A stretch of 20,974 bases of DNA, from positions 1 through 20,974 of IMG/VR virus record IMGVR_UViG_3300037070_000483; one strand, given 5' to 3'. Under the pieces are notes generated by a model that saw nothing but the letters and a program-made list of their open reading frames with translations, searched no databases and was not told where the DNA came from. The position numbers were made by a program, and so were the translations under genes. Each line of letters starts with the position of its first letter. Position 1 is the first letter of the stretch. Positions 398 through 19,860 of the stretch are shown here, one piece after another. The DNA comes from a virus.

Positions 398-2803
398 CTA
401 GCCGTGCGGGCGCTGAATAAACGGGGTGTTCTGGTTCGGGATCAGCCGGATGTCCTTCGGTTCGACCCACGCTTTGATGAGATGGTGCTGTAGTTTGCCG
501 AACGGCGTAGACCAAGCGACTAGGATATAGCGCGTAGTTTCGTCTACTGACCAGACTTCTAGACGGGCACCAGCAGGGATCTCTCCGAACTGTCCTCTAG
601 CCTCAGGTCCAGATTTCGGCGGGTTAGCCTGCATACCTGTCTGAGGGTCCCAGCCTAGGTTCCACCAGTGGTGTAACTCATAGTCGCCATGGTGATCGTA
701 AGGCTCTGCACCAGGCACAGGAATCTTGCCGCCACTGTACTCACCAAAGATAGGCTGGATCGCCTGTACGATAGGAGTTTTGCCTGCGTTTGATAGCTCT
801 AGAATTTTCTGGAAGTCGTCATCTTCGCGCCCGGCGATAACCACCATCACAGGGATGTCGTCTATATTCTGTAGATGTGTATATCGCTTAGACAATGCGC
901 CAGGCAAGTTGAAGAGCCTTTCTTTCTGTGGGTCCCCAGGCATGAACATCGGTCGGTTAACGTACGGGTCAGGCAGCGGGCCAATAGGCTTGACCATCGC
1001 GCCAGGTGACTGAGGTATCGTCAGGTCTTGCATTGTAGCAGGTACAGGTGACGTAGGATCGTAGCCCATCCCTACAGGCACCGGCTGACCAGGCATCGGT
1101 GGTGCTGGTGCAGGCATAGTAGAGGCAGGATCGAATAGCTGCTGCTGTTGTGCCATAGGATCTACAGGAGCCGCCTGACCTGGGGTAGGCGCTGTACCTT
1201 GTGCATCTTCGTCTAGAGGCGTGCTAAGGGCCTTCCAGTACGTCGCTAAAACATGGGAGCAGGGTCGGCCCTCATACTTTTTCCACTGGCGTGTGCGGCC
1301 CCATGCGTACTGATCCCAGTCGCACTCACAGGTCCACTGTGAGATAGCTCGTGAGTTAGGGTCATCGCGTGAGATCTCAGGCTGATAGACACCATGATCT
1401 CCGATCACAGTAGCTACGATGTTGTTGTATCCATTACGGTGTAGTGTGACGCGACCATCCTGGATCATACGCTTAGCTTTAGCCATAACGTCAGGCCATG
1501 ACGCTTCGTGACGCATCTTAGCGACACGATCTAGCTCAAAGCTACGACGCTCTATCTTTTCTGCCGCGTCGGCACGACGATCTGCGTCGCTCTGCTTCTG
1601 ACCTAGCTCATCAGTAATGTAGATCATGGTTGGCACATCTTGTCTGTGATTGCGAACAGGGACCTCGTTCTCTGTCGCCCACTTGATCGCGGCCTTGTAT
1701 CGCATCGGCAAAACTGTGTTCTCAAATATATGAAGCTCTTCCATAGCATTGAGTATATTCTGACGATAGCCTCTAAGGCTAGCTTCTTCTACGCGGCGGT
1801 CTTCGCCCCACGCCAGCATGTCCTTATGATTTTCAATCGCATTGTTTAGTCGCTCGTGCTCTGACTCCATGTTGACCTCAGGATTGAACTCGATAGCCTC
1901 AGGAGGAATTGGCCCAAAGTGAGATACACTACCGCGACTCAATGAGTGTAGCGTGTTATGCGGCGCATCGAGCTTATCGGCGTGTGCGTCAGCCCAAGCT
2001 CCTAGATGAACACCGTGCTCCCTCCACTTAAATTCATCAGGGGCAGGAGGAATATCGTCCCCTGAATGAAGGATGAAGTGGTCTTCATCAGCACCAAAAT
2101 TGTTAGGATCTAATTTGCTAAGATCAATACGATGCCAAGGCGTATCGAAGTTTTCAACTATCCGCCTGTCGCCTAGGTATACTCGGTTATGTCGCGGCAC
2201 CGTGAAGTCACCTTCATACCGGCTCGCTGTAGGGTTGTTAGGATGATCGAAAGGAAGCAAACCATGCTGGTGAATGGTCTCGACTGCTCGCATTGGTGAA
2301 CCGTGATAGAGATAGCGACTCGCATCGCCTTTCCAATCTGTTCCTTGACGCGGCGAACGTAGGATCTTATCCCAATCATCAGGCGCAAAGGCCGCTTGCT
2401 TCTTGTTGACCTCATAAGGCTGTGTGACAAACTTGCTAGGCTCTTCACCTGAACTAGCACGTTCCTTAATGCGGCGCATGATCTCTAGCGCTCGCTTAGA
2501 AGGGTGGGCTGTGAGGAATCCTTTACCTTTGCCTAGGTGATAAGGCACAGGCGTAGTGAACTGGTCAGCCGTAGGGTCTAGATCCTGACCGTTACTGAGG
2601 TCCCTAACCCACCAGTGTGACTCACCTTCATGTGGTAGCTGCATAGGCACAAAACCTTCTTCTTTGCCGCCTAACATATGATAGAGAGCTTCGCTCGCAG
2701 CATAGCAATGACCACCCATTGGATGTGGGTGGTCACGATACTTCGGCTTACGTAAGTCCTCAGAGAGAACGCCTCGTACTGCCTTGATTAGGTGCTGGCT
2801 CAT
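398..2803 (-). CDS. multidomain protein: Cys/His/Asp peptidase-like start, ADP-ribosyltransferase-like domain, SWIM zinc finger
   Basis: 801 aa; SD GGTGAG precedes the ATG, which overlaps the previous stop by 4 bp (ATGA). Residues 30-82 hold GHCYAASEAL (C33), ESHWW (H63) and GQDLDPTADQF (D74/D76), arranged like a papain/NlpC-type Cys-His-Asp site. Residues 163-306 look like an ADP-ribosyltransferase (ART) fold: YLYHGSP (H167), AVETIHQHGLLP, RVYLGD (Y209), ADEDHF (E240) and a closing GPIPPEAIEF. A charged, probably coiled-coil stretch follows (312-440). Residues 490-520 form a SWIM finger: CEC (492-494), then CSH (515-517), CxC-x20-CxH. A Pro/Gln-rich linker (535-615) leads to a C-terminal domain (645-790) I do not recognise. 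SWIM fingers bind nucleic acid or protein; ART folds modify proteins or RNA, or remove RNA 2'-phosphates (KptA/Tpt1). The SWIM call is firm, the ART call good, the peptidase-like call tentative. It could be a virion-carried effector or a nucleic-acid enzyme. Confidence 0.85.
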   Translation of the reverse strand: MSQHLIKAVRGVLSEDLRKPKYRDHPHPMGGHCYAASEALYHMLGGKEEGFVPMQLPHEGESHWWVRDLSNGQDLDPTADQFTTPVPYHLGKGKGFLTAHPSKRALEIMRRIKERASSGEEPSKFVTQPYEVNKKQAAFAPDDWDKILRSPRQGTDWKGDASRYLYHGSPMRAVETIHQHGLLPFDHPNNPTASRYEGDFTVPRHNRVYLGDRRIVENFDTPWHRIDLSKLDPNNFGADEDHFILHSGDDIPPAPDEFKWREHGVHLGAWADAHADKLDAPHNTLHSLSRGSVSHFGPIPPEAIEFNPEVNMESEHERLNNAIENHKDMLAWGEDRRVEEASLRGYRQNILNAMEELHIFENTVLPMRYKAAIKWATENEVPVRNHRQDVPTMIYITDELGQKQSDADRRADAAEKIERRSFELDRVAKMRHEASWPDVMAKAKRMIQDGRVTLHRNGYNNIVATVIGDHGVYQPEISRDDPNSRAISQWTCECDWDQYAWGRTRQWKKYEGRPCSHVLATYWKALSTPLDEDAQGTAPTPGQAAPVDPMAQQQQLFDPASTMPAPAPPMPGQPVPVGMGYDPTSPVPATMQDLTIPQSPGAMVKPIGPLPDPYVNRPMFMPGDPQKERLFNLPGALSKRYTHLQNIDDIPVMVVIAGREDDDFQKILELSNAGKTPIVQAIQPIFGEYSGGKIPVPGAEPYDHHGDYELHHWWNLGWDPQTGMQANPPKSGPEARGQFGEIPAGARLEVWSVDETTRYILVAWSTPFGKLQHHLIKAWVEPKDIRLIPNQNTPFIQRPHG

Positions 2804-3531
2804 GCTATGTACTCACCTGTTATCTTAGAGATCTCAGGGTGAAGACCAGCATTGGCGATCCATTTATAGATGATGTTACTCTCTACGAAGTCACCTTTGC
2901 CGTCTGCCTGGTCACGCTGGCGGCGCTTATGTACTTGCTTCCAGAACTCTTTGGCTCCTGGTGGATCGTACTTGAGTAGAAGCCGCATCTTGTCTTCCTG
3001 CATCTTAGCGTAAGTGATTAGTGCAGGCATCTCCTGGTAGATATCGATGGTACGGTCACGCTCAGGCGGTACGATCCAGTGGTCGATGTCTAGGTCATAG
3101 GCTGAGCGTAGCCCTGCCTGATAGAGTGTATCTTGTGTGATGCCCTCAGGTACGACGTAACACTGTAGAACATGCGTCGTTCCTGGAACCTTAAGGCCGT
3201 CGATATGGTCTACCATGACGCTGATGATGTCTGCTCTTACAACCTCAGGTAGCTTACCCCACTCTACGAATAGACTAACATCGAAGTCACTCTTTTCACT
3301 CCACTGATAGGTTGTGAGAGACCCGGTGAGAACGAGGCGAAACTTTGCCTCCGGGTCTGCCCACCCCCTAGACTTGAGCAAATTGTAGATCGTCTTCGAT
3401 ACCCACTTACGTACTCGTGGCTTGAGCCGTGGAGCAGGTGACTCAGGCTTGTCGAACACATCAGGGTCTAAGCCTGTTCTAATATTATCAAGAATATTAG
3501 AAACCTTTGTGCTTACGTCAGACGGCTGCAT
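2800..3531 (-). CDS. nucleotidyltransferase-fold protein, 243 aa
   Basis: Starts at ATG 3531 behind GGGAG, overlapping the 3' end of the CCA-enzyme fusion by 14 bp; its stop overlaps the next start by 4 bp. Residues 66-88 read LVLTGSLTTYQWSEKSDFDV, the pol-beta-type nucleotidyltransferase signature: a GS pair (70-71) followed by DxD (D82, D84). The third acidic residue expected on a later strand is not obvious; the candidate strand reads THVLQCYVVPEG. The C-terminal part is basic and helical (KQVHKRRQRDQADGKGDF). Such proteins transfer a nucleotide to RNA, protein or a small molecule; the substrate here is unknown. Its neighbours, a CCA-adding enzyme and an ART-like protein, suggest an RNA-directed role, but this is inference. 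Confidence 0.85.
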   Translation of the reverse strand: MQPSDVSTKVSNILDNIRTGLDPDVFDKPESPAPRLKPRVRKWVSKTIYNLLKSRGWADPEAKFRLVLTGSLTTYQWSEKSDFDVSLFVEWGKLPEVVRADIISVMVDHIDGLKVPGTTHVLQCYVVPEGITQDTLYQAGLRSAYDLDIDHWIVPPERDRTIDIYQEMPALITYAKMQEDKMRLLLKYDPPGAKEFWKQVHKRRQRDQADGKGDFVESNIIYKWIANAGLHPEISKITGEYIA

Positions 3532-6500
3532 TGTACTCCCTCGCCATTTGCAGGAGAGTCTCTCGCTGGTTGAGCGCAGGGTTCTCTAGCACCATGTCTA
3601 GCAGGTGCTTGAGGATACCGCCCATGCCTGGTCCTGGTGGTACGCCTAGAGCGATCAGGTCCTTACCATTGATAGCAAGGTTCGCTGCACCGGTAGGATC
3701 AGCCTTAGCGCGGACTGACTGGATCAGGTTACGCATGTTGCCTACGTCATTCTGTGCAGGCTTGCCCTTGAGGTCACCTTCACGCATCAGCATCAGGTCA
3801 TCAGCATGGTCAGGACCTACGCGGTTAATGAACTTACGAGCACCGGCCTCTGATTTAAACTCAGGGAACATATGGTGTCGCACAAGATGTTCTACACGCT
3901 CTGTACGAGCACGAGGGAACTTGAGCCGCTGTAGAGCCTCACGAGTCAGGTCAGCGCCGTGATGCTCGTGGTCGAGACCCTGACCATGCTCATTCTGGTA
4001 GTAGTGTGCCCACCCTTCATCATCGATCCACTTCGCATCAGGCTTACCGATATCATGTAGCATAGCCATGTAGCGTAGATCCTTGTCATCGCTATTCTTG
4101 GCCACATGATCTAGCACCGTCATGGTGTGATCGAATAGCTCCTGGTTATGATACTTGTTCTGCTGATCGAACTGGTGTGTGCGTGAAAGCTCAGGCAGGA
4201 AGTGCTCTAGCACTCCTGTCTCTTGGGCTAGACGGATAGCGTCAGCCGGATGATCTCCACCCATCAGCTTATCTAGCTCTGCCTGGATACGCTCCGCAGG
4301 CAGATGCTTGAGGTTCGGTGCGTTCTTCCGCATAGCAGCCTTAGTCTCTTCGTCAGGGATAAGACCGTGCCTCGACCTCGATGCTAGCCCTCGCATGATA
4401 CGTAGCGGATCGTCAGGGAAAGAGAACTCGCTAGTGGTACGTAGCTTACGCTGTTGCAGATCGTCCCAGCCACCGTAAGGATCGATCAGTTCGCCTCGCT
4501 TGAGGTCGAACGCCATAGCATTGCCTGTGAAGTCACGACGAGATAGGTCTGTCTCGATAGGTAAAGTTGGATCTGTCTTGACCTCAAAATCCTTATGGCC
4601 TGCGCCTGTCGATGCCTCTGTGCGAGGCATGGCGATCTCTACGTCGAAACCTTCCTTGGTACGGTAGCGGAATACGCCGAAAGCTTTACCAGTAAAATCT
4701 ACACGACCAGGAAGTTGCTTAAGGATCTTCTCGATGGTATCAGCGTCAATACCCTGCACCATCAGGTCGATGTCCTTAGGCTCTCGGCCTAGCGCCAGGT
4801 CACGGATAGCTCCACCTACGACGTAGACGTTACCATGATGACCAAGGGCTAACGCAGCGGTATGAGCCGCTGGGTCTGCTACTAGGAGTTGATGTACTTT
4901 CGCAGCCACGTCTTCTGCCGCCAATTTCTGTCGCTTCTTGACTCCACCGAGATCAGTGAATTCTAACATTACTTTCTTGACCTCAAGCTCAGGGTGCATA
5001 TAGTACCAGAGCTTGATTAGGTGACGGATAGTGATAGGGATGTTGGATGTCTCCATGATCCTTAGCTCACCGTCAGGGAAGTAGTAACCTTCGACTACAC
5101 CGAATGTGTTGTAGTCAGGAGCCTGGATGTCCTGCGGGCCATCACCAGGGTGGCCTACGTACAGCTTATCACCTTTCTCGTCGTAGAGCCAGGGGATCGG
5201 TCCAGCGATAGGAGCCTCAGCCGTTAACTTGAACTGCTGTACCCATCCTGGCCGTTGTACCTTAGCATCCCAGTCGTCATAACCCGGAACCGTATTCCAT
5301 CTCGCTGGCTGATGAGTCTGACCCTTGGATACCTGCTTACGCCACTCCATCATTTTCTGCCGCGCTTTCATGTAAGGCTCGGTAGCACGAGGATGAGTAT
5401 GTGGGAGCCGGTCTCCGTCACCGAAGTGAACGACCGGAGATCCAAAATTTGAAAAGATGACTTCGCCTCCGTACGCACCATCAGCGAATAGACGATTCGA
5501 TGCGTCATCTGTGCCGTGGTGATCGCCTGGATTCCCCACCCATCGGATTTTACCATCTTGTTCATAAAAAGGAACGCGAATAGCGTCATCGCCAGTATAG
5601 TTGTCGGCCCATACTCTTTCGCCGCCTTCTATATTTCCGTCATTTGGGACGCTGGGATTATTCCAGTCGTTGCTAAATCTAAATGAGTCTACCCAGCCTG
5701 GCTGATGGACCATCTTTGCCCATTCTGACCCGTATCCATCTACCACTAAGTCACCTGTATAGTTGTCATAATCTGTGCGTGTATCTAACTCAGGTGTCTC
5801 GCCTCGCTTGATCTGATTCCGAAAATCGATCATCTTCTTGCGAGCCTTCATAAGAATCGGCGTGGCGCGAGGATCGTCATTCGGCAGTACATCACCTTTA
5901 CCAAAGGTATAGTGAATCTGTGGCGGACCAAAGTTAGAATAGACAACCTCGCCAGAGATCCATTCCTCTTCCTCTAGTACCGAGGTAGCGTGCCAGTCTC
6001 CTGGCGTACCCATCCATTTAACCTGAAAATTTTTATCCATGTAGAAAGGAACGCGGATAGCATCCTCGCCTATATAGGTGTCCATCCACTTAGCATTCGG
6101 ATTGTCACGCTGAGAGCCTGATGCCCAATCGGTATAGCTGCCCGCCTCTCTTCCTACGGCGGATAGTCTAAATGCGTTAGCCCATCCCTCAGGCCGAGGA
6201 TTGTTGTAGTAATTGTGAGCAGTGTTATCAGGATTGTGTTTAAAATCAATCATCTTACGCTTAGCAAGATTCATAAGAGTAGAGTAACGAGGATCAGTTG
6301 GCTCTGCGTGGGTTACAGTTAGCGAACGCCCTATGAGATGAATTTGCGGAGGACCAAATGTTGTGAATACAACTTCGCCAGAATCTCGTGAAAAATCTGG
6401 ATTTACATTTGTACCATAAACATCAGAGTGCATTCCACCTGGGTTACCAATCCACTTTACAGGCAAAATTGGAGACTTGTCATTCTGCCAATCTGCTAGA

Positions 6501-7267
6501 AAGGGGATTCGAATAGCGTCGTCACCTGAGTAGGTGTCGAACCAGTTATCTTTGTTCACGCGCTCCGAGACTTTGCCGGTAGTGATACCAGGCTCGCCAC
6601 CAGGACGAGAGACCTCGTTATAGCCTGCTGGTAGCTGTGCGTCAAGATCGACTACAGGTGCCGCAGGCTTCGGTGGATTCTCATGGTGAGCGTACATCTG
6701 ATGTACAAGCCACTCAGCCTGGTTCTCTAGCTCGATACCACAGTGGCGGCACTTCATCGGAGTGTCTTTGAAATCAATCGAAGGCTCGTTACCGCGTACA
6801 GGGTCCTGGAACCCAGGATAGTCGGTGTCGAGAGAGTCTTCTGCCCATTCCTTGTTCATCCAGTCCATTACGCCAGGATTACGTTCACCGATACCTACTG
6901 CTTCGGCTGTCTTGTTCCAGGGAATGAGGTTACCTTCACGATCCACGATCTGCTTCAAGAGCATATTGTGTTCGGAGCACCACTTCTTAAGGATCTTGCC
7001 GAGAATCTTGAGAGCAACGCCTGAGTGCAGTACAGTGAATGTGCAATGCCAATTGTGCTCAATCTCCATTGTACCGGCTGCGTCCTCATGTGGGACCTGC
7101 TCGTCTACAAATAATTTATCCTCAGAGACTACCCAAGTCTTTTTCTCAGGCGCTCTGTAAGGCTTGGCGGTGTCTGTATAGTCACGCTGGAAAGCTTTGG
7201 CCTGTGGTTCTTCGCCAGGGTATGCATCCCCGCCCCAACCAAAGTCTGATGTGATAAGATTCGCCAT
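3518..7267 (-). CDS. giant fusion: C2H2 finger, four tandem repeat modules and a tRNA CCA-adding enzyme with HD domain
   Basis: 1249 aa. Residues 1-165 are of unknown type. C173/C176/H189/H194 form a C2H2 finger (CRHC ... HQMYAHH). Residues 242-760 hold three clear repeat units and a degenerate fourth. Residues 782-1249 form a full tRNA nucleotidyltransferase: head VVGGAIRDLALGREPKDIDL (D832, D834 as the metal ligands), the class II signature RRDFTGNAMAFD (910-921), DPLRIMRG (953-960), AERIQAELDKLM (991-1002), then an HD domain with FDHT (H1047), LHDIGK (H1071-D1072), HEHHG (1100-1104) and VRHHM. The family adds or repairs the 3' CCA of tRNA, and many bacterial members carry an HD phosphohydrolase; family members are usually around 400-500 aa, so roughly 780 extra residues are fused here. 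The ATG at 7267 has no SD, and a terminator-like hairpin ends 5 nt upstream, so the start or its control is unusual. It heads a three-gene overlapping cassette. Confidence 0.93.
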   Translation of the reverse strand: MANLITSDFGWGGDAYPGEEPQAKAFQRDYTDTAKPYRAPEKKTWVVSEDKLFVDEQVPHEDAAGTMEIEHNWHCTFTVLHSGVALKILGKILKKWCSEHNMLLKQIVDREGNLIPWNKTAEAVGIGERNPGVMDWMNKEWAEDSLDTDYPGFQDPVRGNEPSIDFKDTPMKCRHCGIELENQAEWLVHQMYAHHENPPKPAAPVVDLDAQLPAGYNEVSRPGGEPGITTGKVSERVNKDNWFDTYSGDDAIRIPFLADWQNDKSPILPVKWIGNPGGMHSDVYGTNVNPDFSRDSGEVVFTTFGPPQIHLIGRSLTVTHAEPTDPRYSTLMNLAKRKMIDFKHNPDNTAHNYYNNPRPEGWANAFRLSAVGREAGSYTDWASGSQRDNPNAKWMDTYIGEDAIRVPFYMDKNFQVKWMGTPGDWHATSVLEEEEWISGEVVYSNFGPPQIHYTFGKGDVLPNDDPRATPILMKARKKMIDFRNQIKRGETPELDTRTDYDNYTGDLVVDGYGSEWAKMVHQPGWVDSFRFSNDWNNPSVPNDGNIEGGERVWADNYTGDDAIRVPFYEQDGKIRWVGNPGDHHGTDDASNRLFADGAYGGEVIFSNFGSPVVHFGDGDRLPHTHPRATEPYMKARQKMMEWRKQVSKGQTHQPARWNTVPGYDDWDAKVQRPGWVQQFKLTAEAPIAGPIPWLYDEKGDKLYVGHPGDGPQDIQAPDYNTFGVVEGYYFPDGELRIMETSNIPITIRHLIKLWYYMHPELEVKKVMLEFTDLGGVKKRQKLAAEDVAAKVHQLLVADPAAHTAALALGHHGNVYVVGGAIRDLALGREPKDIDLMVQGIDADTIEKILKQLPGRVDFTGKAFGVFRYRTKEGFDVEIAMPRTEASTGAGHKDFEVKTDPTLPIETDLSRRDFTGNAMAFDLKRGELIDPYGGWDDLQQRKLRTTSEFSFPDDPLRIMRGLASRSRHGLIPDEETKAAMRKNAPNLKHLPAERIQAELDKLMGGDHPADAIRLAQETGVLEHFLPELSRTHQFDQQNKYHNQELFDHTMTVLDHVAKNSDDKDLRYMAMLHDIGKPDAKWIDDEGWAHYYQNEHGQGLDHEHHGADLTREALQRLKFPRARTERVEHLVRHHMFPEFKSEAGARKFINRVGPDHADDLMLMREGDLKGKPAQNDVGNMRNLIQSVRAKADPTGAANLAINGKDLIALGVPPGPGMGGILKHLLDMVLENPALNQRETLLQMAREYNAAV
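4988..5200 (-). repeat. degenerate fourth repeat module next to the CCA-enzyme domain
   Basis: Residues 690-760. Only part of the pattern remains: IPWLYDEKGDKLYVGHPGDG matches the R/K-W-x-G-N-P-G segment, and TFGVVEGYYFPDGELRI matches the SGEVV...FGPP strand pair. The DAIR core is missing. It ends in a helix (RHLIKLWYYMHPE) that takes the place of KARKKMIDFR, and it may act as the hinge to the enzyme domain. Confidence 0.55.
5219..5611 (-). repeat. protein repeat module 3 in the CCA-enzyme fusion
   Basis: Residues 553-683. It shares WADNYTGDDAIRVPF, RWVGNPGDHH, GGEVIFSNFGSPVVH and KARQKMMEWR with the other modules, and closes with PGWVQQFKLTA. The DNA of the modules has diverged much more than the protein, which points to an old duplication under selection. 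Confidence 0.8.
5672..6088 (-). repeat. protein repeat module 2 in the CCA-enzyme fusion
   Basis: Residues 394-532. It shares WMDTYIGEDAIRVPF, KWMGTPGDWH, SGEVVYSNFGPPQIH and KARKKMIDFR with module 1, and closes with PGWVDSFRFS. The linker after KMIDFR holds an extra DYDNYTGDLVVDGYGSEW segment that partly echoes the module start and makes this unit the longest. Confidence 0.8.
6158..6544 (-). repeat. protein repeat module 1 in the CCA-enzyme fusion
   Basis: Residues 242-370. Key positions: WFDTYSGDDAIRIPF, KWIGNPGGMH, SGEVVFTTFGPPQIH, a basic helix ending KRKMIDF, then the unit-closing GWANAFRLSA. It aligns with modules 2 and 3 without much effort. The W-x-D-x-Y-x-G-[DE]-DAIR core and the NPG turn look like a small beta-rich domain. 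I do not recognise the family. Confidence 0.8.
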
Positions 7268-7271
7268 AGAT

Positions 7272-7309
7272 AAACAAAAAGCCCAATAGATATGCTCTAT
7301 CTATTAGGC
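7272..7309 (-). terminator. intrinsic terminator or attenuator just before the CCA-enzyme fusion
   Basis: On the minus strand GCCTAATAGATA pairs with TATCTATTGGGC around a 5-nt loop (12 bp, one U.G wobble) and is followed directly by TTTTTGTTT. The wobble becomes a C.A mismatch on the other strand, which fits minus-strand function. It ends 5 nt before the ATG at 7267. It should stop transcripts from the small-gene operon, or act as a conditional attenuator for the cassette downstream. Confidence 0.75.
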
Positions 7310-9471: not shown

Positions 9472-10026
9472 TTAAACCGCAGCTTTCTGTGGAACCCTGG
9501 TAAGGGCCTCTTCAATAGCGTTTTTATATACCTCAATTGCGAGGATCGGACTAGCCAGGTAAGTCATCGCCTGAGGATACATACGCTCTGTCAGACGTAG
9601 AGCTTTGCCGTTTGGATTAGGCCAAGTTTCTTTAGCCTGCGAGTGACCTAGTACCTCGGCCTCTGCTCCTAAGGCTGCTTCGTCAGCGTGCTTTACCGCT
9701 TCGATCTCCTGCGGGTTCGGTAGCTCGATATTTAATTCATCGTAGATCCGACCCAGGATCATATTTTCGCGCTTCCTTGCAGCTACCGTCTTCCATGGCG
9801 TAGGAACATCTGAGACACACGACTCAGGCGCGTCATGGAGTAGCCCATGAATCCGTAGCTTGACCGGCATCATCTCAGCTACCACGAGGGTATGACATAG
9901 AACGCTGTACCAGTCTCGCGTATGCCCACAGAAGCGAGGGATACGAGATAGCGATACAGCGATAGATTCGATGGACGGCGCGACGTTGTTCTTAGGCCAT
10001 ACTGACTCACCCGTATACGTAATCAT
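9472..10026 (-). CDS. HD-domain phosphohydrolase, YfbR-like 5'-nucleotidase candidate
   Basis: The frame is open from a TTG at 10041, but ATG 10026 has the strong SD GAGGGTGAG just upstream, giving 184 aa and a 20-bp overlap with the dNMP kinase gene. HD-family metal ligands are visible: H45 in SVLCHTLVVAE, H64-D65 in RIHGLLHDAPES and D115 in VKHADEAA. The pattern SRIPRFCGHT...YSVLCHT...LLHDAPES...DVPTPWK matches YfbR-like deoxynucleoside 5'-monophosphatases and related phage HD proteins. Such enzymes dephosphorylate dNMPs and shift the dNTP pool. Pairing with the dNMP kinase suggests they jointly tune nucleotide supply in the infected cell. The exact substrate is inferred. Confidence 0.87.
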   Translation of the reverse strand: MITYTGESVWPKNNVAPSIESIAVSLSRIPRFCGHTRDWYSVLCHTLVVAEMMPVKLRIHGLLHDAPESCVSDVPTPWKTVAARKRENMILGRIYDELNIELPNPQEIEAVKHADEAALGAEAEVLGHSQAKETWPNPNGKALRLTERMYPQAMTYLASPILAIEVYKNAIEEALTRVPQKAAV

Positions 10027-10573
10027 AAAGCTCACCCTCAATCTGTCGATCTAGATTTGCAAAGTTGTCATCACGAACTGTGTTGTCAATGATGAAGTCA
10101 AATACATCGTCAGGAAAATCCTGCTCGCTAGCGTGACCATCAGACTTATCGTTAGGTCCAACTACCTTCCACATGTAGCCGCCGAGATCCTTGATCCGCT
10201 CAATCTCATTCGGGAACCGGACATCTGTAGCGACAAGGAATTCGAAACTGTGATTGTAGTCGAGAGGTAGAATTGCATCAAGCCAGAAGTCATCGCCGAA
10301 AATGTCACGATGTCCTTCTGTACCGAACAACTGTAGGTACTTGCGTACCGATAGCTGGGCGACCTCATCACCATCTGCGTCACCGACAAAAAGAAAACCG
10401 CCCTCTTCCTTGAGGCGCTCTAGCTCTTCGACGCTGATATTGAGACAGGCCGCTGCGGAAAGCTTGAGCTTGTCAGCGAATGCCACACGCTCAGCTTTAG
10501 CACCACGAGCCGCGATGCGCTGGTAGACCGTATCCTTACCGCTACGCAGCTTACCGTTGAGTCCAATTAACAT
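10007..10573 (-). CDS. deoxynucleoside monophosphate kinase, T4 gp1-like
   Basis: 188 aa, starting at ATG 10573 behind a near-ideal AGGAGG. A Walker A loop lies at residues 4-15 (GLNGKLRSGKDT). AFADKLK (residues 32-38) and the later ATDVRFPNEIERI segment are typical of the phage dNMP kinase family, which phosphorylates dNMPs to dNDPs using ATP. The length fits a minimal kinase of this type. Its neighbours are an HD nucleotidase (20-bp overlap) and a 92-aa unknown gene. The strong SD suggests it is made in larger amounts than its neighbours. Confidence 0.9.
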   Translation of the reverse strand: MLIGLNGKLRSGKDTVYQRIAARGAKAERVAFADKLKLSAAACLNISVEELERLKEEGGFLFVGDADGDEVAQLSVRKYLQLFGTEGHRDIFGDDFWLDAILPLDYNHSFEFLVATDVRFPNEIERIKDLGGYMWKVVGPNDKSDGHASEQDFPDDVFDFIIDNTVRDDNFANLDRQIEGELYDYVYG

Positions 10574-10581
10574 GAGTCCTC

Positions 10582-10860
10582 CTAGTTCGCGAAGAATGAA
10601 TGCTCGGCGTAGAATTCCTCTGCCTTCTTATCTAGCACATTCTTCAATTTCTGCCATTCAGCATCAGCGAAAGCATCTACCTCTTCCTCGGTAGCCTTAG
10701 GCGGGATAGGAAATTCCTTGGTGCGCGAGAAATGACCATCGACAGACTCATAGGTCTGTACGACTTTGCCATTAGCATCACGGAAATTACCGTTACACTT
10801 AACTCCAATAGAGTAGCTTACGGTAACCGATGTTGGTGTAATTACAATTCCTTCCTTCAT
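10582..10860 (-). CDS. hypothetical protein, 92 aa
   Basis: The ATG at 10860 overlaps the upstream stop as TAATG, with GGTGAG upstream. The N-terminal half is beta-rich (EGIVITPTSVTVSYSIGV); the C-terminal half is helical and charged (EEVDAFADAEWQKLKNVLDK). I recognise no family or catalytic motif. It is coupled to the 59-aa gene upstream and lies 8 bp before the dNMP kinase start. Confidence 0.8.
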   Translation of the reverse strand: MKEGIVITPTSVTVSYSIGVKCNGNFRDANGKVVQTYESVDGHFSRTKEFPIPPKATEEEVDAFADAEWQKLKNVLDKKAEEFYAEHSFFAN

Positions 10861-11039
10861 TACGTTCTCACCACCGATACGACCAGGCGAGGATGCTCTT
10901 CTACCACGGCCTGAAAGTCCTTGTCTACGATGCCGGTGAGCTTAGCCACGGCCTCCTTAGACAGGGGTGCGCCATTCAGGCTCGACACGGTTACGCAGAA
11001 AGCGTTAGACCGGTTAGGGTTCTTGTTATCAGTAGACAA
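10860..11039 (-). CDS. hypothetical protein, 59 aa, TTG start
   Basis: The frame is open from 11102, but the upstream part lies inside the metallophosphoesterase gene. A GGAGG sits 6 nt before the TTG at 11039, so I place the start there. The product begins STDNKNPNRSNAFCVTVSSL after the initiator and ends VVEEHPRLVVSVVRT. It looks like a small alpha/beta protein. The family is unknown. It overlaps the previous gene by 11 bp and couples to the next by TAATG. Confidence 0.7.
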   Translation of the reverse strand: MSTDNKNPNRSNAFCVTVSSLNGAPLSKEAVAKLTGIVDKDFQAVVEEHPRLVVSVVRT

Positions 11040-12084
11040 GTGCAGCCTCCATAGATTCGACAGTTCCGTAGGTCTTACCGCCGAAGATGAAAGCATCGCC
11101 AATGGCAGCTACCAACTCGACGTTAAAGATTGCATCCTTCTTGGTGTGGAAGTGAGCCACTGCAACACCAGGCTGCCAGTTAGCTTCACCGACAACGTAG
11201 TCAGGTGACTGCTGGCAGAGACAACCGCCCTCAAACCAGCGGAGGTCACGGTAGCCGGTACGGCGAGCATCACCCAGGCGATGGGTGTGACCCATGAACC
11301 CGGAGATGAGCGTATCATTGAGGCGGCTCTTAGCACTAGCACCAGAGTCCTTGCGGACTACGTGACCATGCTCAAAGACGAACTCAGGCCGGATACGGTG
11401 TCCTTCACGACCGTAGAGAGTAATCTCTAGCTCGTCATGCATGAACAACTTCTCAGGCTTGAGAGCACGAAGGCTATGAAGCTGCTTCGCGTTAAGCTCA
11501 ATGTAGGTAACGACACGCTCGTCATGATTTCCAAGATTCTCTCGGATGACTGCGTTCGGTGCCGCCTTGCGGATAGCTGCGCGGATATCGTTACCGATGT
11601 CGAGGTCAGACTGTAGTTCGTCTGCTCGCTCGTTGCTCTTGTTGAAGCGTGAAATTCCAAAGAAGTCGTTGGTATCTCCGTTGATAACAACAACATGTGG
11701 CTGGAGGTCTGCGATCAGTTCCAGCGCCGCCTTCAACTGAGCGGAATTATGGTATGGTGCATGGATGTCGGTTAGAATGACAACAAGCTCAAAAAGCTCA
11801 TTCGTCGTAACCTGGACGATAGGGGCGAGTCCGCCGTCCCATGTCTCTGACTTCGGTACTACGACGCCCTTACCAGGAATGTACTGCTTGAGTCGGTCCT
11901 GATTCAGACGGTACTCGGAGATCCGGCTACGGAGTCCGGCAACGCTACCATAGAGGCTGCCTTTGTTCTCTTCCCGGATCACATCTTCGAACTTGTCGTT
12001 GATGTCGTCTAGTAGCTCGGCCCACGATGGAGGATCTTCCATCTCACGCTGCGCTACGCAATACTCTAGAATGTCTCTATTCAA
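11029..12084 (-). CDS. calcineurin-like metallophosphoesterase with HTH-like N-terminus
   Basis: 351 aa from a TTG at 12084, chosen because AGGAG lies 7 nt upstream; the frame is open slightly further. The metallophosphoesterase signature is complete: LTDIHAPYH (D106, H108), INGDTND (D137), LGNHDER (N186, H187), FEHGHV (H239, H241) and GFMGHTHR (H266, H268). Residues 1-70 are helical and could form a DNA-contacting domain. Members of this fold cleave phosphodiesters or phosphomonoesters in DNA, RNA, nucleotides or proteins; the substrate here is unknown. The position right after the portal and just before nucleotide-metabolism genes favours a nucleic acid or nucleotide substrate. Confidence 0.9.
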   Translation of the reverse strand: MNRDILEYCVAQREMEDPPSWAELLDDINDKFEDVIREENKGSLYGSVAGLRSRISEYRLNQDRLKQYIPGKGVVVPKSETWDGGLAPIVQVTTNELFELVVILTDIHAPYHNSAQLKAALELIADLQPHVVVINGDTNDFFGISRFNKSNERADELQSDLDIGNDIRAAIRKAAPNAVIRENLGNHDERVVTYIELNAKQLHSLRALKPEKLFMHDELEITLYGREGHRIRPEFVFEHGHVVRKDSGASAKSRLNDTLISGFMGHTHRLGDARRTGYRDLRWFEGGCLCQQSPDYVVGEANWQPGVAVAHFHTKKDAIFNVELVAAIGDAFIFGGKTYGTVESMEAALVY

Positions 12085-12094
12085 GACTAAACTC

Positions 12095-14209
12095 CTAATC
12101 TTCAATCATTTTATACTTGCGGGCACGATCAGCGTCCTCACCTACACTTGCATCACCCCCTTCGTCCGTGGAATCGCTTGCGGAAGAGACTGTATTATAC
12201 TCTAGTCCCTTCCGACGCTCGTTAGATATCTCCGGGACAGGTCCGCCACCGACGCCTTCTGGCCTCGTAACGGCTGGCCCGCCGCCTGGTACGCTCGGCG
12301 TTAAATCCCCAGGTGGTGGAGGCATCAGAATATTTCCCCCGCCAGGAGTGGCTGGTCCTACGGGACCGCCGTCTGTTTCTGTAGGTCCCATTGTACCAGA
12401 TCCCGCAGCATTCGGGTCAGAAATTGATCCTGCCGCTGCAATTTCCGCAACAAGATCAGGCGGTACAGGCAACCCTTGCTTGGTAAGCTGCTCGTAGGTT
12501 TCTAGCTTCGCACGCTGCTGAGCAACGGTCTTCCACTTCATTTCCTCTTCCATCTCGTTCAAGCTATCCTTGTACTCCTTGCTCACACCAATCATCATGC
12601 TTCGGTCTGAGATAGGAACGCCCATAGCGCGTAGCTGCTGTAGGAACTGTCGCTCCGTAGCTTCGTCACGCATGTCGAGTACCGCCATTTCCAGGTCAGG
12701 TACGAGTAGCTTGTTCTTACGAACGATTTGGATATTACCTTCTTCATCAATCTCCGCAATGTCTTCCATGATAGGTACGCGAGTAGCGCCCTTCTTCTCA
12801 TAGTCATAGTGACCCTGAGCCTCTGCAACGATCAATGCACGCTCACGGGCGTGCTTCTTTAGGTACTTCTGGTAGGTGCGTAGCATCTGGTTCATGAACT
12901 CAGCCTGTAGCGCCGATGAAGCGTAAGGCTGTGAGTTAGAACCGGCTGATAGGAGTGATGGGTTGATACCGAATACCTGCATCAACCGACGCTCTACTCG
13001 ATCAAAGTCATCGTAGAGATCAGGCATCTGCTCACGACCGAACACACTTGTTACCTCGACACCAAAATGGTGTACCATGAGGCGGAAGTCTGACGACAGA
13101 GCAATATCCATCTCGTCACGGAACGCATCGAGATCTTCTGGGCCAGGAATCCATGGCGGCATACCGTCGCCTAGGTCCTGGAAGCCTAGCTTAGCTAAGA
13201 TCAGTGGACTGTATAGACGCTCAGCGATAGCATCTTGTGACGCTAGTAGCTTTTCCTCGTGGATAAGCGTACGAAGACCACGGAGTAAGATAGGTGTTCC
13301 GTGATCGTCCCAAGGTGTAACGCCGAACTTAACCTGCTTGATAAGCACGTCAGATACAGGAAATGGTTCTCCCCGCTCTAGATATGGAATCAGGTCAGGG
13401 AAGTTGATCTGTAGCTGCTTGTACTCCTTAGCAGGCATCTTGTTTTGCACGAGCCGCTTTAGGTACTCAGGCGGCACTACCTTTAGCTGGCTACTACCAA
13501 GGATCGGAAAGTTCTCGACCGTGATATCCTCAGGGTTAAGCAACTGCTCATCTTCCCAGACACCTAGCGACTCATTGAATTGACCAAGCGGAAAAGCCTC
13601 ACCTACGGTCCAGTATTCGCGACCAAGATGAGTCAGAAATGAAGGATAGTCTAGCTTGTCTAGGAACTGATCCGTGTAGAATTCGGTTAGCTTCTCGTCC
13701 TTGCACTCAAAGTGCATTTCCGAGAGGGGGAACCGTGTGAAGATGTCTACGAGTGAAGGGACGAGGTAATGCGTTGCGTAGAACAGACGGAGCCACTTGT
13801 GTAATTTGTGACGGTGACCTTCGTCAGCCATATTCCAGGGGAGACCTGAGAGATCCCAATATTCCATAGGATCGTAGAACCGTGGGATAGCTGCATAGAC
13901 ATCACCCCCGCCCGCCGTGGAACGCTTTTGCATAGACCCATTGGCTACTCTCGACCCGCCCATCGCCCTCGCTAAGCGCGAATTTTCTCGCACCATCGAT
14001 AGCGTTGCTTCGTTTTGGGACGGGCCTCCCTGGGATGACATTGAGATACGCGATAAATCTTTTCGCAACATCCCCGGTGTATGGGACATGTGTGCCATTT
14101 CCGTTGCTGCTGCCGTTGCCCTCATGGGATTCTTCGGTAGAACTAGACCCTGCCGACGCAAGTCTGCTATTGCCTCGTTCGACGCCCTGATATTCCTCTT
14201 GATAGCCAC
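12095..14209 (-). CDS. phage portal protein
   Basis: 704 aa from a GTG at 14209. A typical portal opening follows a variable leader: PRFYDPMEYWDLSGLPW (109-125), then YATHYLVPSLVDIFTRFPL (144-162). Later segments (GTPILLRGLRTLIHEEKLLA, SPLILAKLG, PSLLSAGSNSQPYASSALQA) also fit portal proteins, which form the dodecameric ring at one capsid vertex through which DNA passes. The C-terminal 130 residues are Gly/Pro-rich and probably disordered. The first 100 residues share DNA with the HNH endonuclease in another frame and use codons such as AGG and TCG more than other genes here, so the exact start is uncertain; ATGs at 14125, 14098 and 14089 are alternatives. Confidence 0.92.
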   Translation of the reverse strand: MAIKRNIRASNEAIADLRRQGLVLPKNPMRATAAATEMAHMSHTPGMLRKDLSRISMSSQGGPSQNEATLSMVRENSRLARAMGGSRVANGSMQKRSTAGGGDVYAAIPRFYDPMEYWDLSGLPWNMADEGHRHKLHKWLRLFYATHYLVPSLVDIFTRFPLSEMHFECKDEKLTEFYTDQFLDKLDYPSFLTHLGREYWTVGEAFPLGQFNESLGVWEDEQLLNPEDITVENFPILGSSQLKVVPPEYLKRLVQNKMPAKEYKQLQINFPDLIPYLERGEPFPVSDVLIKQVKFGVTPWDDHGTPILLRGLRTLIHEEKLLASQDAIAERLYSPLILAKLGFQDLGDGMPPWIPGPEDLDAFRDEMDIALSSDFRLMVHHFGVEVTSVFGREQMPDLYDDFDRVERRLMQVFGINPSLLSAGSNSQPYASSALQAEFMNQMLRTYQKYLKKHARERALIVAEAQGHYDYEKKGATRVPIMEDIAEIDEEGNIQIVRKNKLLVPDLEMAVLDMRDEATERQFLQQLRAMGVPISDRSMMIGVSKEYKDSLNEMEEEMKWKTVAQQRAKLETYEQLTKQGLPVPPDLVAEIAAAGSISDPNAAGSGTMGPTETDGGPVGPATPGGGNILMPPPPGDLTPSVPGGGPAVTRPEGVGGGPVPEISNERRKGLEYNTVSSASDSTDEGGDASVGEDADRARKYKMIED

Positions 14210-17883: not shown

Positions 17884-19860
17884 CTAGTTACGGCCTCTAC
17901 GCATCCGGTAGTCCATCGATCTCGATGCCGGTGCGTCGATTCTAGATCGCCCTGCACGGATAGAGTCAGTGAGAGGATGGTCGTTCTGATTAGCCGCTAA
18001 GCCGCCGATCTGGAACCCGCCCTGTGAACCGAACGAAGGGCTGCCAAATTCAGGGTTCATGCCGAAACCCATTATACCACCCATGAGGACACGAGTACAC
18101 TCAGCGATACAGTCCGCGATGTCCTTAGTCTGAACAGGGCCGATACTCTGCTTGTCTACTGAGCCTTGCTTCTCCTGGAGAAACTTTAACTCCAGAGAGG
18201 AATACTCTGAGTCTACACAGTCCGGTGGAATATGGACACGGCCTAAGTTGAGTGCAGTCTTGAAGAACTCCCATTTGTTGCGGTTACGTAACTTGGTGGC
18301 AGTCTCCATATAGACTTGAACGCTTAGGCCCTTTTCAGCCAAATTTTTCTGGAGCCATTGAATTGGGGCCACAGAGTTGAACTGGTCGAAGGTCAGTGAA
18401 CGTGGGCGGTAAGCCTCACAGTAGCGTAGTAGCTCTTCCATGACCTGCATGTAGTCGATGGTGCTGTTCGGAAAGTCTGCCGGATTCCAGCGCTTCACGA
18501 GATCGAATACAACGTGGCCTTCCATTAGCTGCGTGTCAGGGTCCATGAACTCTTCTACGTGTGCGATAGCAAACCCGAAACCTGCTGTAGTGCTAGAAGG
18601 GTCGCAGTGCATGACGTAAGGCATGTTGTTGTAGTTACCCATCTGCGTACCCTGGATTTCCTTGCCGCGATAGGATGGAGCGTAAGCTTCATTGACGCGC
18701 TCAGGGTTGAGGTAAGCGTTGACTACCTCTGACCACTCAGCACGACGCTCGACCTTGAACTTGTCAGGGTTAGCTTTTTCAGACAGCTTTGCACGTAGAC
18801 AGAGGTCTTTGTCGATAGGGTTCTCGATAGTCTCAGGATCGATGTCTGGGCTGACCATCAGCGCCCACTTGAACTTGTCGCCTTCCATCTCATAGTCACG
18901 GTACAATTCCCATGAAGGGAACTTGAAGAACATGAGTGTAGGGAATGACGGCGACCCATCTGCCTCCATCATCTGTGAGTCAGAGTATCTATCGAAGAAC
19001 TTACCTAGCTTGGTATACGGTGAGCTATTCAGGAAGATGATACCGTCTTTACCGAACTGCGCGAGTGAAGGCTCAGCGGCAGAGTAGCACTCATCGGCTG
19101 AGGATCTGTTGCCCTCAGTGGTCTCCATGAATGCCATCTCGTCAAAGACGATAGCCATGGTAGCTGATCCTCGGATGGTGTCAGCGTTAGCCGCTAGTGG
19201 GGTGACTCGGATCTTCGCGAAGTTACGACCGACCGGGATACCTTGACGCTTAAGCTCAGCGATATAGGAAGAGTCACCTAGGGTGTGTACCGATAGGCTC
19301 TCTTCCTGCACCTTGCCTAGCCCGTGCTTCGACTCAATGAGAGGCTTACACTTGGTAGCTGTGTTAACTACATCAGCGAACTGGAACTTCTTAGCCTGAT
19401 CGAGGGAGGACGCCACACAAGAGAAGTAGATTTCCTTGTCAGGGTCTACTCCGTAGTAACGGCCAGGGTCGCCTAGCTTCCAGGTATCGTGTAGGATACG
19501 GGTTATGGCGATGCCGGTGACGTATCCTTTAGATGAACGTCGGCCTCCTACGAAGCCTACCTCAGGGAAATGCTTATAGCCGTGGTCACGTAGCCACTGG
19601 CGACGCTCACGGATACCAGGGCTGATCTCTACGCCGCCTTCGCCTGCAATCCAACTATCGAGTACACCTTCCTCGTACTCGTCCATCTCTTCCAAGAAAA
19701 TAAGCTTTAGCAGGACGCGCTGACGCGGGTAGAGTGGCTTCTGACAATATTCCTCAGCGAACTCTACGATCCCTACCTTGTAGCTATCCAGCCCTTGCCG
19801 GATTTGCTCTCGGAAGTCAATGCCTGGCACTAAACGATCTTGCCCTTCTGTCCAAGCCAC
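17884..19860 (-). CDS. terL: terminase large subunit
   Basis: 658 aa from a GTG at 19860 behind GGAGAGAA, overlapping the upstream gene by 31 bp. ATPase domain: Walker A GFVGGRRSSKGY (102-113, K111), Walker B MAIVFDEMAF (D237, E238) and a coupling motif LNSSPYTKLGKF (274-285). Nuclease domain: MHCDPSSTTAGFG (D417), LTFDQFN (D489) and VQTKDIADCIAE (D577/D580), as in RNase H-like terminase nucleases. The protein drives ATP-dependent DNA packaging through the portal and cuts concatemers. In Walker A the residue after K111 is Gly rather than the usual Ser/Thr. The length is within the family range, and the end (RMRRGRN) is basic. Confidence 0.95.
   Translation of the reverse strand: MAWTEGQDRLVPGIDFREQIRQGLDSYKVGIVEFAEEYCQKPLYPRQRVLLKLIFLEEMDEYEEGVLDSWIAGEGGVEISPGIRERRQWLRDHGYKHFPEVGFVGGRRSSKGYVTGIAITRILHDTWKLGDPGRYYGVDPDKEIYFSCVASSLDQAKKFQFADVVNTATKCKPLIESKHGLGKVQEESLSVHTLGDSSYIAELKRQGIPVGRNFAKIRVTPLAANADTIRGSATMAIVFDEMAFMETTEGNRSSADECYSAAEPSLAQFGKDGIIFLNSSPYTKLGKFFDRYSDSQMMEADGSPSFPTLMFFKFPSWELYRDYEMEGDKFKWALMVSPDIDPETIENPIDKDLCLRAKLSEKANPDKFKVERRAEWSEVVNAYLNPERVNEAYAPSYRGKEIQGTQMGNYNNMPYVMHCDPSSTTAGFGFAIAHVEEFMDPDTQLMEGHVVFDLVKRWNPADFPNSTIDYMQVMEELLRYCEAYRPRSLTFDQFNSVAPIQWLQKNLAEKGLSVQVYMETATKLRNRNKWEFFKTALNLGRVHIPPDCVDSEYSSLELKFLQEKQGSVDKQSIGPVQTKDIADCIAECTRVLMGGIMGFGMNPEFGSPSFGSQGGFQIGGLAANQNDHPLTDSIRAGRSRIDAPASRSMDYRMRRGRN

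Follow-up and report, generated by a model that had tools for sequence, protein, structure and literature searches.

The DNA that we analyzed (here called the window) is a linear virus record of 20,974 bases. Its minus strand carries, at 3518 to 7267 (stop included), a frame of 1249 codons with zero internal stops, and the open reading frame and Pfam searches identify the product as a 1249-residue multidomain CCA-enzyme protein. From the N terminus, and all on the minus strand, this protein contains an N-terminal domain that we call the core (residues 38 to 115; 6923 to 7156), a C2H2-type finger (residues 173 to 195; 6683 to 6751), and three modules delimited by repeat comparison: module 1 (residues 240 to 370; 6158 to 6550), module 2 (residues 392 to 531; 5675 to 6094), and module 3 (residues 548 to 685; 5213 to 5626), which end in FRLSA, FRFSN, and FKLTA, respectively. 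These are followed by a domain that we call m4 (residues 686 to 783; 4919 to 5212) and by a class II CCA-adding enzyme with an HD domain (residues 786 to 1249; 3521 to 4912). The joint between m4 and the enzyme bears the motif KLAAE (residues 781 to 785; 4913 to 4927), a candidate protease site. The original prediction had placed extra N-terminal residues, a C2H2 finger, and a complete CCA enzyme with an HD domain in this gene, and the uninterrupted frame and the agreement between Pfam and the motifs bear this layout out. The CCA junction has no in-frame start codon with a convincing ribosome-binding site. We also saw no Shine-Dalgarno-like sequence at 7268 to 7300, before the ATG of the gene; neighboring genes have one, and it is possible that the gene is leaderless or has its own promoter.

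The enzyme part was recognized by four Pfam families: PolyA_pol (residues 814 to 943, E 8e-24), PolyA_pol_RNAbd (971 to 1028, E 4e-19), HD (1045 to 1137, E 4e-8), and tRNA_NucTran2_2 (1110 to 1242, E 8e-8). It also matches the PHROG tRNA nucleotidyltransferase family (E 9e-77). All CCA active-site motifs are present (VGGAIRD, DID, RRDFTGNA, DDPLR, and LHDIGK), and nearly all are matched in 16 relatives. The catalytic head typical of class II enzymes, GG-x2-RD followed by DxD, reads VGGAIRD...KDIDLMV, and the nucleotide-template motifs RRDFTxNA and ED/DDxxR read RRDFTGNA and DDPLR, although motifs alone cannot separate CCA-adding enzymes from CC- or A-adding ones. The solved structures nearest by sequence are 1miv (the CCA-adding enzyme of Geobacillus) and 3h37 (the Thermotoga enzyme); the alignment with these two spans the active-site motifs, and DDxxR also occurs in the 3h37 sequence. 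Judging by these matches, the enzyme domain of the window is complete and its motifs are intact.

Class II CCA enzymes with an HD domain, both the E. coli type (PRK10885) and the actinobacterial type (TIGR02692), share with the window protein the head, RNA-binding, and HD domains and the motifs. The window protein differs from them in scoring below the equivalog cutoffs (206.3 bits against 438.8 for TIGR02692, the host actinobacterial enzyme), in carrying about 780 extra N-terminal residues, and in belonging to a phage clade of its own. In our tree, 18 phage-clade enzymes form one clade (support 97) apart from the host actinobacterial enzymes, with the window beside L101, its closest relative (57% identity in the enzyme).

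The genes around the CCA gene, all on the minus strand, place it in the late region of a phage. The window encodes a large terminase (17884 to 19860) and a portal protein (12095 to 14209), the latter placing the phage near cluster-C-like actinobacterial myophages: it is 38 to 45% identical to the portals of Rhodococcus phages Finch and E3, Gordonia phage Stormageddon, and cluster C mycobacteriophages, and 53 to 67% identical to those of many metagenomic contigs. The gap between portal and CCA genes is occupied by metabolic genes (9472 to 12105), namely a metallophosphoesterase (11029 to 12105) and a YfbR-like phosphatase (9472 to 10041), both from Pfam and PHROG searches, and a dNMP kinase-like gene (10007 to 10573), named from its sequence and conserved in relatives. 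Since these metabolic genes share the stretch, position alone does not prove that the CCA protein is a virion protein. On the other side lie a second nucleotidyltransferase-like gene (243 residues; 2800 to 3531) and a gene for an 801-residue protein (398 to 2803) with YunG-like, ART/KptA-like (1871 to 2320), and SWIM zinc-finger (about 1223 to 1540) domains. The CCA gene overlaps the second nucleotidyltransferase gene by 14 bases (3518/3531), which in turn overlaps the SWIM gene (2800/2803), as in an operon.

This order recurs in relatives as TerL, portal, metallophosphoesterase, nucleotide-metabolism genes, the core-to-m4 part, CCA enzyme, second nucleotidyltransferase, and SWIM protein, with G008 and L107 as exceptions. 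The second nucleotidyltransferase was present in every CCA-positive contig mapped for gene order and was not found in L005, L010, and L011, contigs without the CCA enzyme; family searches gave it no named family. The ART-like domain of the window (1871 to 2320, minus strand) is 34% identical to the domain that lies between m4 and the enzyme in L087 and weakly resembles RNA 2'-phosphotransferase (E 0.06). Several other features of these regions caught our attention. The SWIM gene of G007 (L089:636-3011, minus strand) contains an apparent intein, CILPGGKIIMADGSTKAVEDMREGDRV ... YVMAPGIACHNC, that splits the SWIM finger. In G005, a frame of 1484 codons downstream of the CCA protein (L087:1-4452, minus strand) appears to be a string of ART-, GNAT-, and ParB-like domains with RTAS/RQAS-type joints. 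RNA ligase genes lie in the portal-capsid region of E3 (L262:16865-17374) and Phabba (L004:24022-24555), another RNA-repair gene where this clade has the CCA enzyme and second nucleotidyltransferase.

We found m4 and the CCA enzyme in a single reading frame in 15 viral contigs (G005/L087, G007/L089, G018/L088, L094, L095, L100 to L103, L111, L115, L116, L117, L142, and the window), a count that includes L115, whose m4 frame is broken. In L115 (5215-9455), m4 is split across two open frames that lie about 390 bases apart, for which an insertion, a frameshift, and an assembly error are candidate causes. Most fused contigs have the end of m4 about 10 residues before the enzyme; G005 and G007 have an ART-like domain in between, and G007 also a ParB-like one (both named by eye). 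The search for joins of the modules to CCA enzymes elsewhere succeeded for m4 and found modules 1 to 3 in the window only. Moreover, the module adjoining the enzyme is not the oddity that it was first taken for: m4 is a regular partner of the phage CCA clade, and only modules 1 to 3 are specific to the window. Sequencing error, a concern raised with the original prediction, is countered by the recurrence of the fusion in independent contigs from other samples, whose CCA domains form one clade. From this recurrence, we consider the CCA fusion to be real and conserved in one phage clade, and not an error.

The sister phages L005, L007, L009, L010, and L011, whose portals are 61 to 67% identical to that of the window, encode a protein of ~360 residues that corresponds to window residues 1 to 230 plus m4 and then stops. 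Because these phages have the core, finger, and m4 alone, the window protein is best described as the sister-phage protein that has gained three modules in the space from finger to m4 and a CCA enzyme behind m4. The flanking domains are joined in some phages and separate in others. In L101, the core, finger, m4, enzyme, and second nucleotidyltransferase form one frame of 1067 codons; in L113, the m4 protein and the enzyme are on separate genes; and in L107 to L110 and L122, the enzyme lacks m4 and is fused to a SWIM domain. Conversely, m4 occurs without the CCA enzyme in L005, L007, and L011 (fragments), phages in which we detected few tRNAs or none. The G008 enzyme is preceded, in a frame of 2163 codons (L086:5779-12267, minus strand), by about ten other repeats. 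Most of these repeats end in DFKFGA-like motifs, and two match the N-terminal half of m4 (E 7e-6 to 7e-5; hhalign P 1e-4). G008 also encodes a core-plus-m4 protein (L073:17595-19598, L086:16478-18481), about 9 kb from the full enzyme, whose tail aligns with the enzyme start up to window residue 869 and looks like the remnant of a decayed older fusion.

Homologues of the core are present in L005 to L011, L101, and others. The finger has the spacing C173-x2-C176-x12-H189-x4/5-H194/195; in 14 aligned homologues its first three ligands are invariant and the fourth varies in some, and the Pfam score of the relatives' finger is below threshold. Modules 1 to 3 share 33 to 48% identity with module 3 and score 28 to 42 standard deviations above shuffles in pairwise comparison, so that by sequence they are clearly repeats of one another. 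The original prediction had counted three clear copies and one degenerate fourth copy; the three stand, and the supposed fourth copy, m4, is a distinct conserved domain that has orthologues of its own. Comparison of m4 with modules 1 to 3 (hhalign P 0.001 to 0.0045; shuffle z 1 to 3) is no more than suggestive of a relationship, possibly a distant one. Direct scans of viral contigs with modules 1 to 3 and the whole protein found nothing beyond the window, searches of phage and plasmid records with the modules gave no match at E up to 10 and 1, and PDB sequences gave chance-level matches only. Third-position GC is 0.45 in modules 1 to 3 versus 0.54 to 0.61, and this lower value, together with the lack of detected relatives, suggests that the modules may be a recent insertion.

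AlphaFold2 predicted small alpha/beta folds for the extra region: bb-bb-a-b for the core (pLDDT about 90), bb-bb-a-bb for m4 (about 85), and, more modestly, bb-bbb-a for module 3 (61). The model of 785 residues had a mean pLDDT of 51, reaching about 85 to 90 in the core and m4. Foldseek returned no match at E <= 0.001 for this model or for module 3, and fold searches of known structures and viral models returned no relative of m4 or the modules. Profile searching and structure prediction, as proposed for this region, therefore yielded folds and no known relative. The top matches, at E 0.12 to 0.4, included tRNA splicing endonucleases and were too weak to be used as evidence. We do not unite the core and m4 in a single repeat family, as they share a predicted order of strands and helices without a sequence signal (hhalign P 0.62).

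The presence of the enzyme is associated with large tRNA arrays. Among related records of at least 75 kb, 10 of the 11 that encode the enzyme have at least 11 tRNA genes (11 to 35), versus 1 of the 9 that do not (Fisher P 0.0009; the threshold of the second tRNA search was stricter, making its counts conservative, and the related phages are not fully independent). There are two exceptions: G008 has the enzyme and only 3 tRNAs, and G019 has 12 tRNAs and no enzyme that we could find, in a record that is possibly incomplete. ARAGORN detected 30 to 46 tRNAs, a nearly full set, in each of four phages with the fused enzyme; 136 of these 145 tRNAs lack an encoded CCA, and therefore need a CCA-adding enzyme, and 9 end in CCA. 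In the window, a 21-kb fragment, no tRNA genes of its own were seen. The association points to maturation of the phage's own tRNAs as the plainest function. The HD domains of E. coli-type enzymes act on 2',3'-cyclic phosphates, and with the HD motif LHDIGK intact, repair of damaged tRNA ends is a likely second use. One array tRNA (L264; G028:34000-48500) has the anticodon TTA and, as an ochre-suppressor type, would decode the stop codon TAA.

We also observed a recurrent motif at the joints between domains. Of 43 distinct joints, 33 have a short K/R-x-A/S-like motif ahead of the domain, whereas windows drawn at random from these proteins would give 3.3, with the caveats that the pattern was chosen post hoc and that the sequences share descent. 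The domains that follow these joints are of four unrelated kinds (core, CCA, SWIM, and second nucleotidyltransferase). At the place of KLAAE, relatives have KLAS, KVAS, KLAT, KVAA, or KLAG, and the motif is kept where a domain opens its own gene, as in the CCA gene of L113 (MNMRRLSAAE). A general excess of the motif was looked for elsewhere in the clade's proteins and not found. In phage Finch (L002:6105-18483, gp12 to gp17), [KR]TA lies between small domains at 3.3 per 1000 residues in the terminase-to-capsid genes versus 0.5 to 0.7 elsewhere; observed and expected counts are 9 and 0.47 in gp12, 4 and 0.39 in gp13, 4 and 0.48 in gp16, and 5 and 0.64 in gp17. E3 gp77, which resembles the corresponding Finch protein in sequence and position, is annotated as a prohead protease. 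The motif at the joints and the Finch/E3 pattern fit a string of domains cut by a head protease, making the joints candidate cut sites, and polyprotein processing is possible in cultured cluster-C-like phages such as Finch.

Both halves of this architecture have precedents. Large phages are known to encode stand-alone CCA enzymes, which are regarded as RNA repair or translation genes (PMC7824862, PMC7162821). Those of Mycobacterium phages Phabba and Myrna and of jumbo or huge phages are likewise phage coded, and Myrna and its relative G024 have arrays of more than 30 tRNA genes, as in the fused clade. Unlike the window protein, these enzymes have about 390 to 400 residues (28 to 38% identity), and that of Phabba is its own gene far from the structural genes, whereas that of the window is in the late region. 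Polyvalent proteins are a named class of multidomain late-region phage proteins (PMC5512222), which also carry several unrelated domains per chain; their known parts include GNAT, ART, ParB, and NTase domains. The window protein, with its finger, repeats, and CCA enzyme, likewise combines two or more unrelated domains in a single chain, and its gene lies near late virion genes (TerL-portal-...-CCA-NTase2-SWIM, with metabolic genes between). Relatives add YunG-, GNAT-, and ART-like domains, several of them subthreshold matches. Pfam recognized neither a domain of the polyvalent seed set (Alt, DarA/B, MuF, Ard, N4 RNAP) nor the metallopeptidase common in that class in the window protein, and the weak ART- and GNAT-like matches are confined to the neighbor gene and relatives. 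The Pol-beta NTases of polyvalent proteins are minimal and mainly from Firmicute conjugative elements, whereas the window's is a class II CCA enzyme, and "CCA" is absent from the main text of that study (PMC5512222). The head-region proteins of cluster-C-like actinobacterial phages (Finch gp12 to gp17, E3 gp76/gp77, Phabba gp233/gp234) share the SWIM protein in the same region and [KR]TA motifs but, unlike the window, have no CCA enzyme fused. We did not detect the core, m4, or the modules in any phage record of the searched collection. That no described system has this architecture held for all libraries, phage records, and papers searched, and within them the presence of a CCA enzyme as one domain in a multidomain late-region phage protein is apparently undescribed. 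Multidomain late-region proteins and stand-alone phage CCA enzymes were already known; the combination is new within the range of these searches.

Based on these observations, we propose that the gene probably encodes a phage protein of the polyvalent type, in which the CCA module would mature the phage's own tRNAs, m4 and the repeats may be a binding scaffold, and the joints may be cut by a protease. The domain string, subject to shuffling and with the CCA enzyme at its C terminus, would be encoded among the late genes of a cluster-C-related phage. The enzyme would use CTP and ATP to extend the 3' ends of phage tRNAs and could repair trimmed ends, and the HD domain would perhaps clear blocked ones. 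The string of m4 and repeats could serve as a scaffold that keeps the enzyme close to the RNAs on which it acts or to other proteins of the phage, a role that is a guess because no relative emerged from the fold searches. The string would be cut at its K/R-x-A/S joints by a protease, with the head-maturation protease as the likeliest candidate.

A tenable if doubtful alternative is that the protein acts whole and unpackaged inside the cell, where m4 and the repeats would be accessory RNA- or ribosome-binding domains aiding tRNA maturation. It agrees with the tRNA-array association and with the regular place of m4 directly before the enzyme; yet m4 is not specific to the enzyme, because it occurs without CCA (L005, L007, L011) and CCA without it (L107), and the junction motif would be left without a role. 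Delivery in the virion is unlikely but deserves consideration: the protein or its CCA piece would be packed in the head, enter with the DNA, and restore tRNA 3' ends at once, as a start-up aid or a counter to host defenses that damage those ends. Such defenses exist (MenT and toxSAS; PMC11541572, PMC11559606), although a CCA enzyme alone is not expected to remove added pyrophosphate or extra Cs. Late-gene position and neighbors fit delivery, despite the ordinary metabolic enzymes in the same stretch, as do the relatives' fusions to domains characteristic of polyvalent proteins (GNAT-like, ART/KptA-like, and ParB-like; several weak or assigned by eye) and the SWIM protein homologue that adjoins prohead protease and capsid genes in E3. 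Iyer 2017 (PMC5512222) argues that polyvalent phage proteins are packaged and sometimes processed, and packaging of the CCA protein is possible. A sequencing, assembly, or frameshift artifact or a decayed, functionless fusion, which the single metagenomic contig, the orphan modules of lower third-position GC, and the enzyme-like tail in G008 might suggest, is very improbable and largely refuted by the same join in independent contigs from other samples, by the single frame from core and finger through m4 to CCA in L101, and by the intact motifs.

Our preferred reading, of a processed string that matures phage tRNAs, can be joined with delivery in a bolder form that we regard as rather improbable: in a tRNA-rich new phage lineage, the CCA enzyme would be a module of a head-region polyprotein, cut by the head protease at K/R-x-A/S joints, packed with its partner nucleotidyltransferase, and injected. 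Maturation of phage tRNAs and repair of host tRNA ends could then start in the first minutes after injection. Phages with dozens of tRNAs are well known, but the question of how tRNAs without an encoded CCA are made functional in the infected cell is seldom addressed. In the phages studied here, the enzyme co-occurs with tRNA arrays and a second nucleotidyltransferase and forms part of a multidomain late-region protein, and m4 emerges as a new domain to characterize. If the joints are protease sites, the naturally fused and split versions of this domain order would allow a direct test of whether such phages make a polyprotein.
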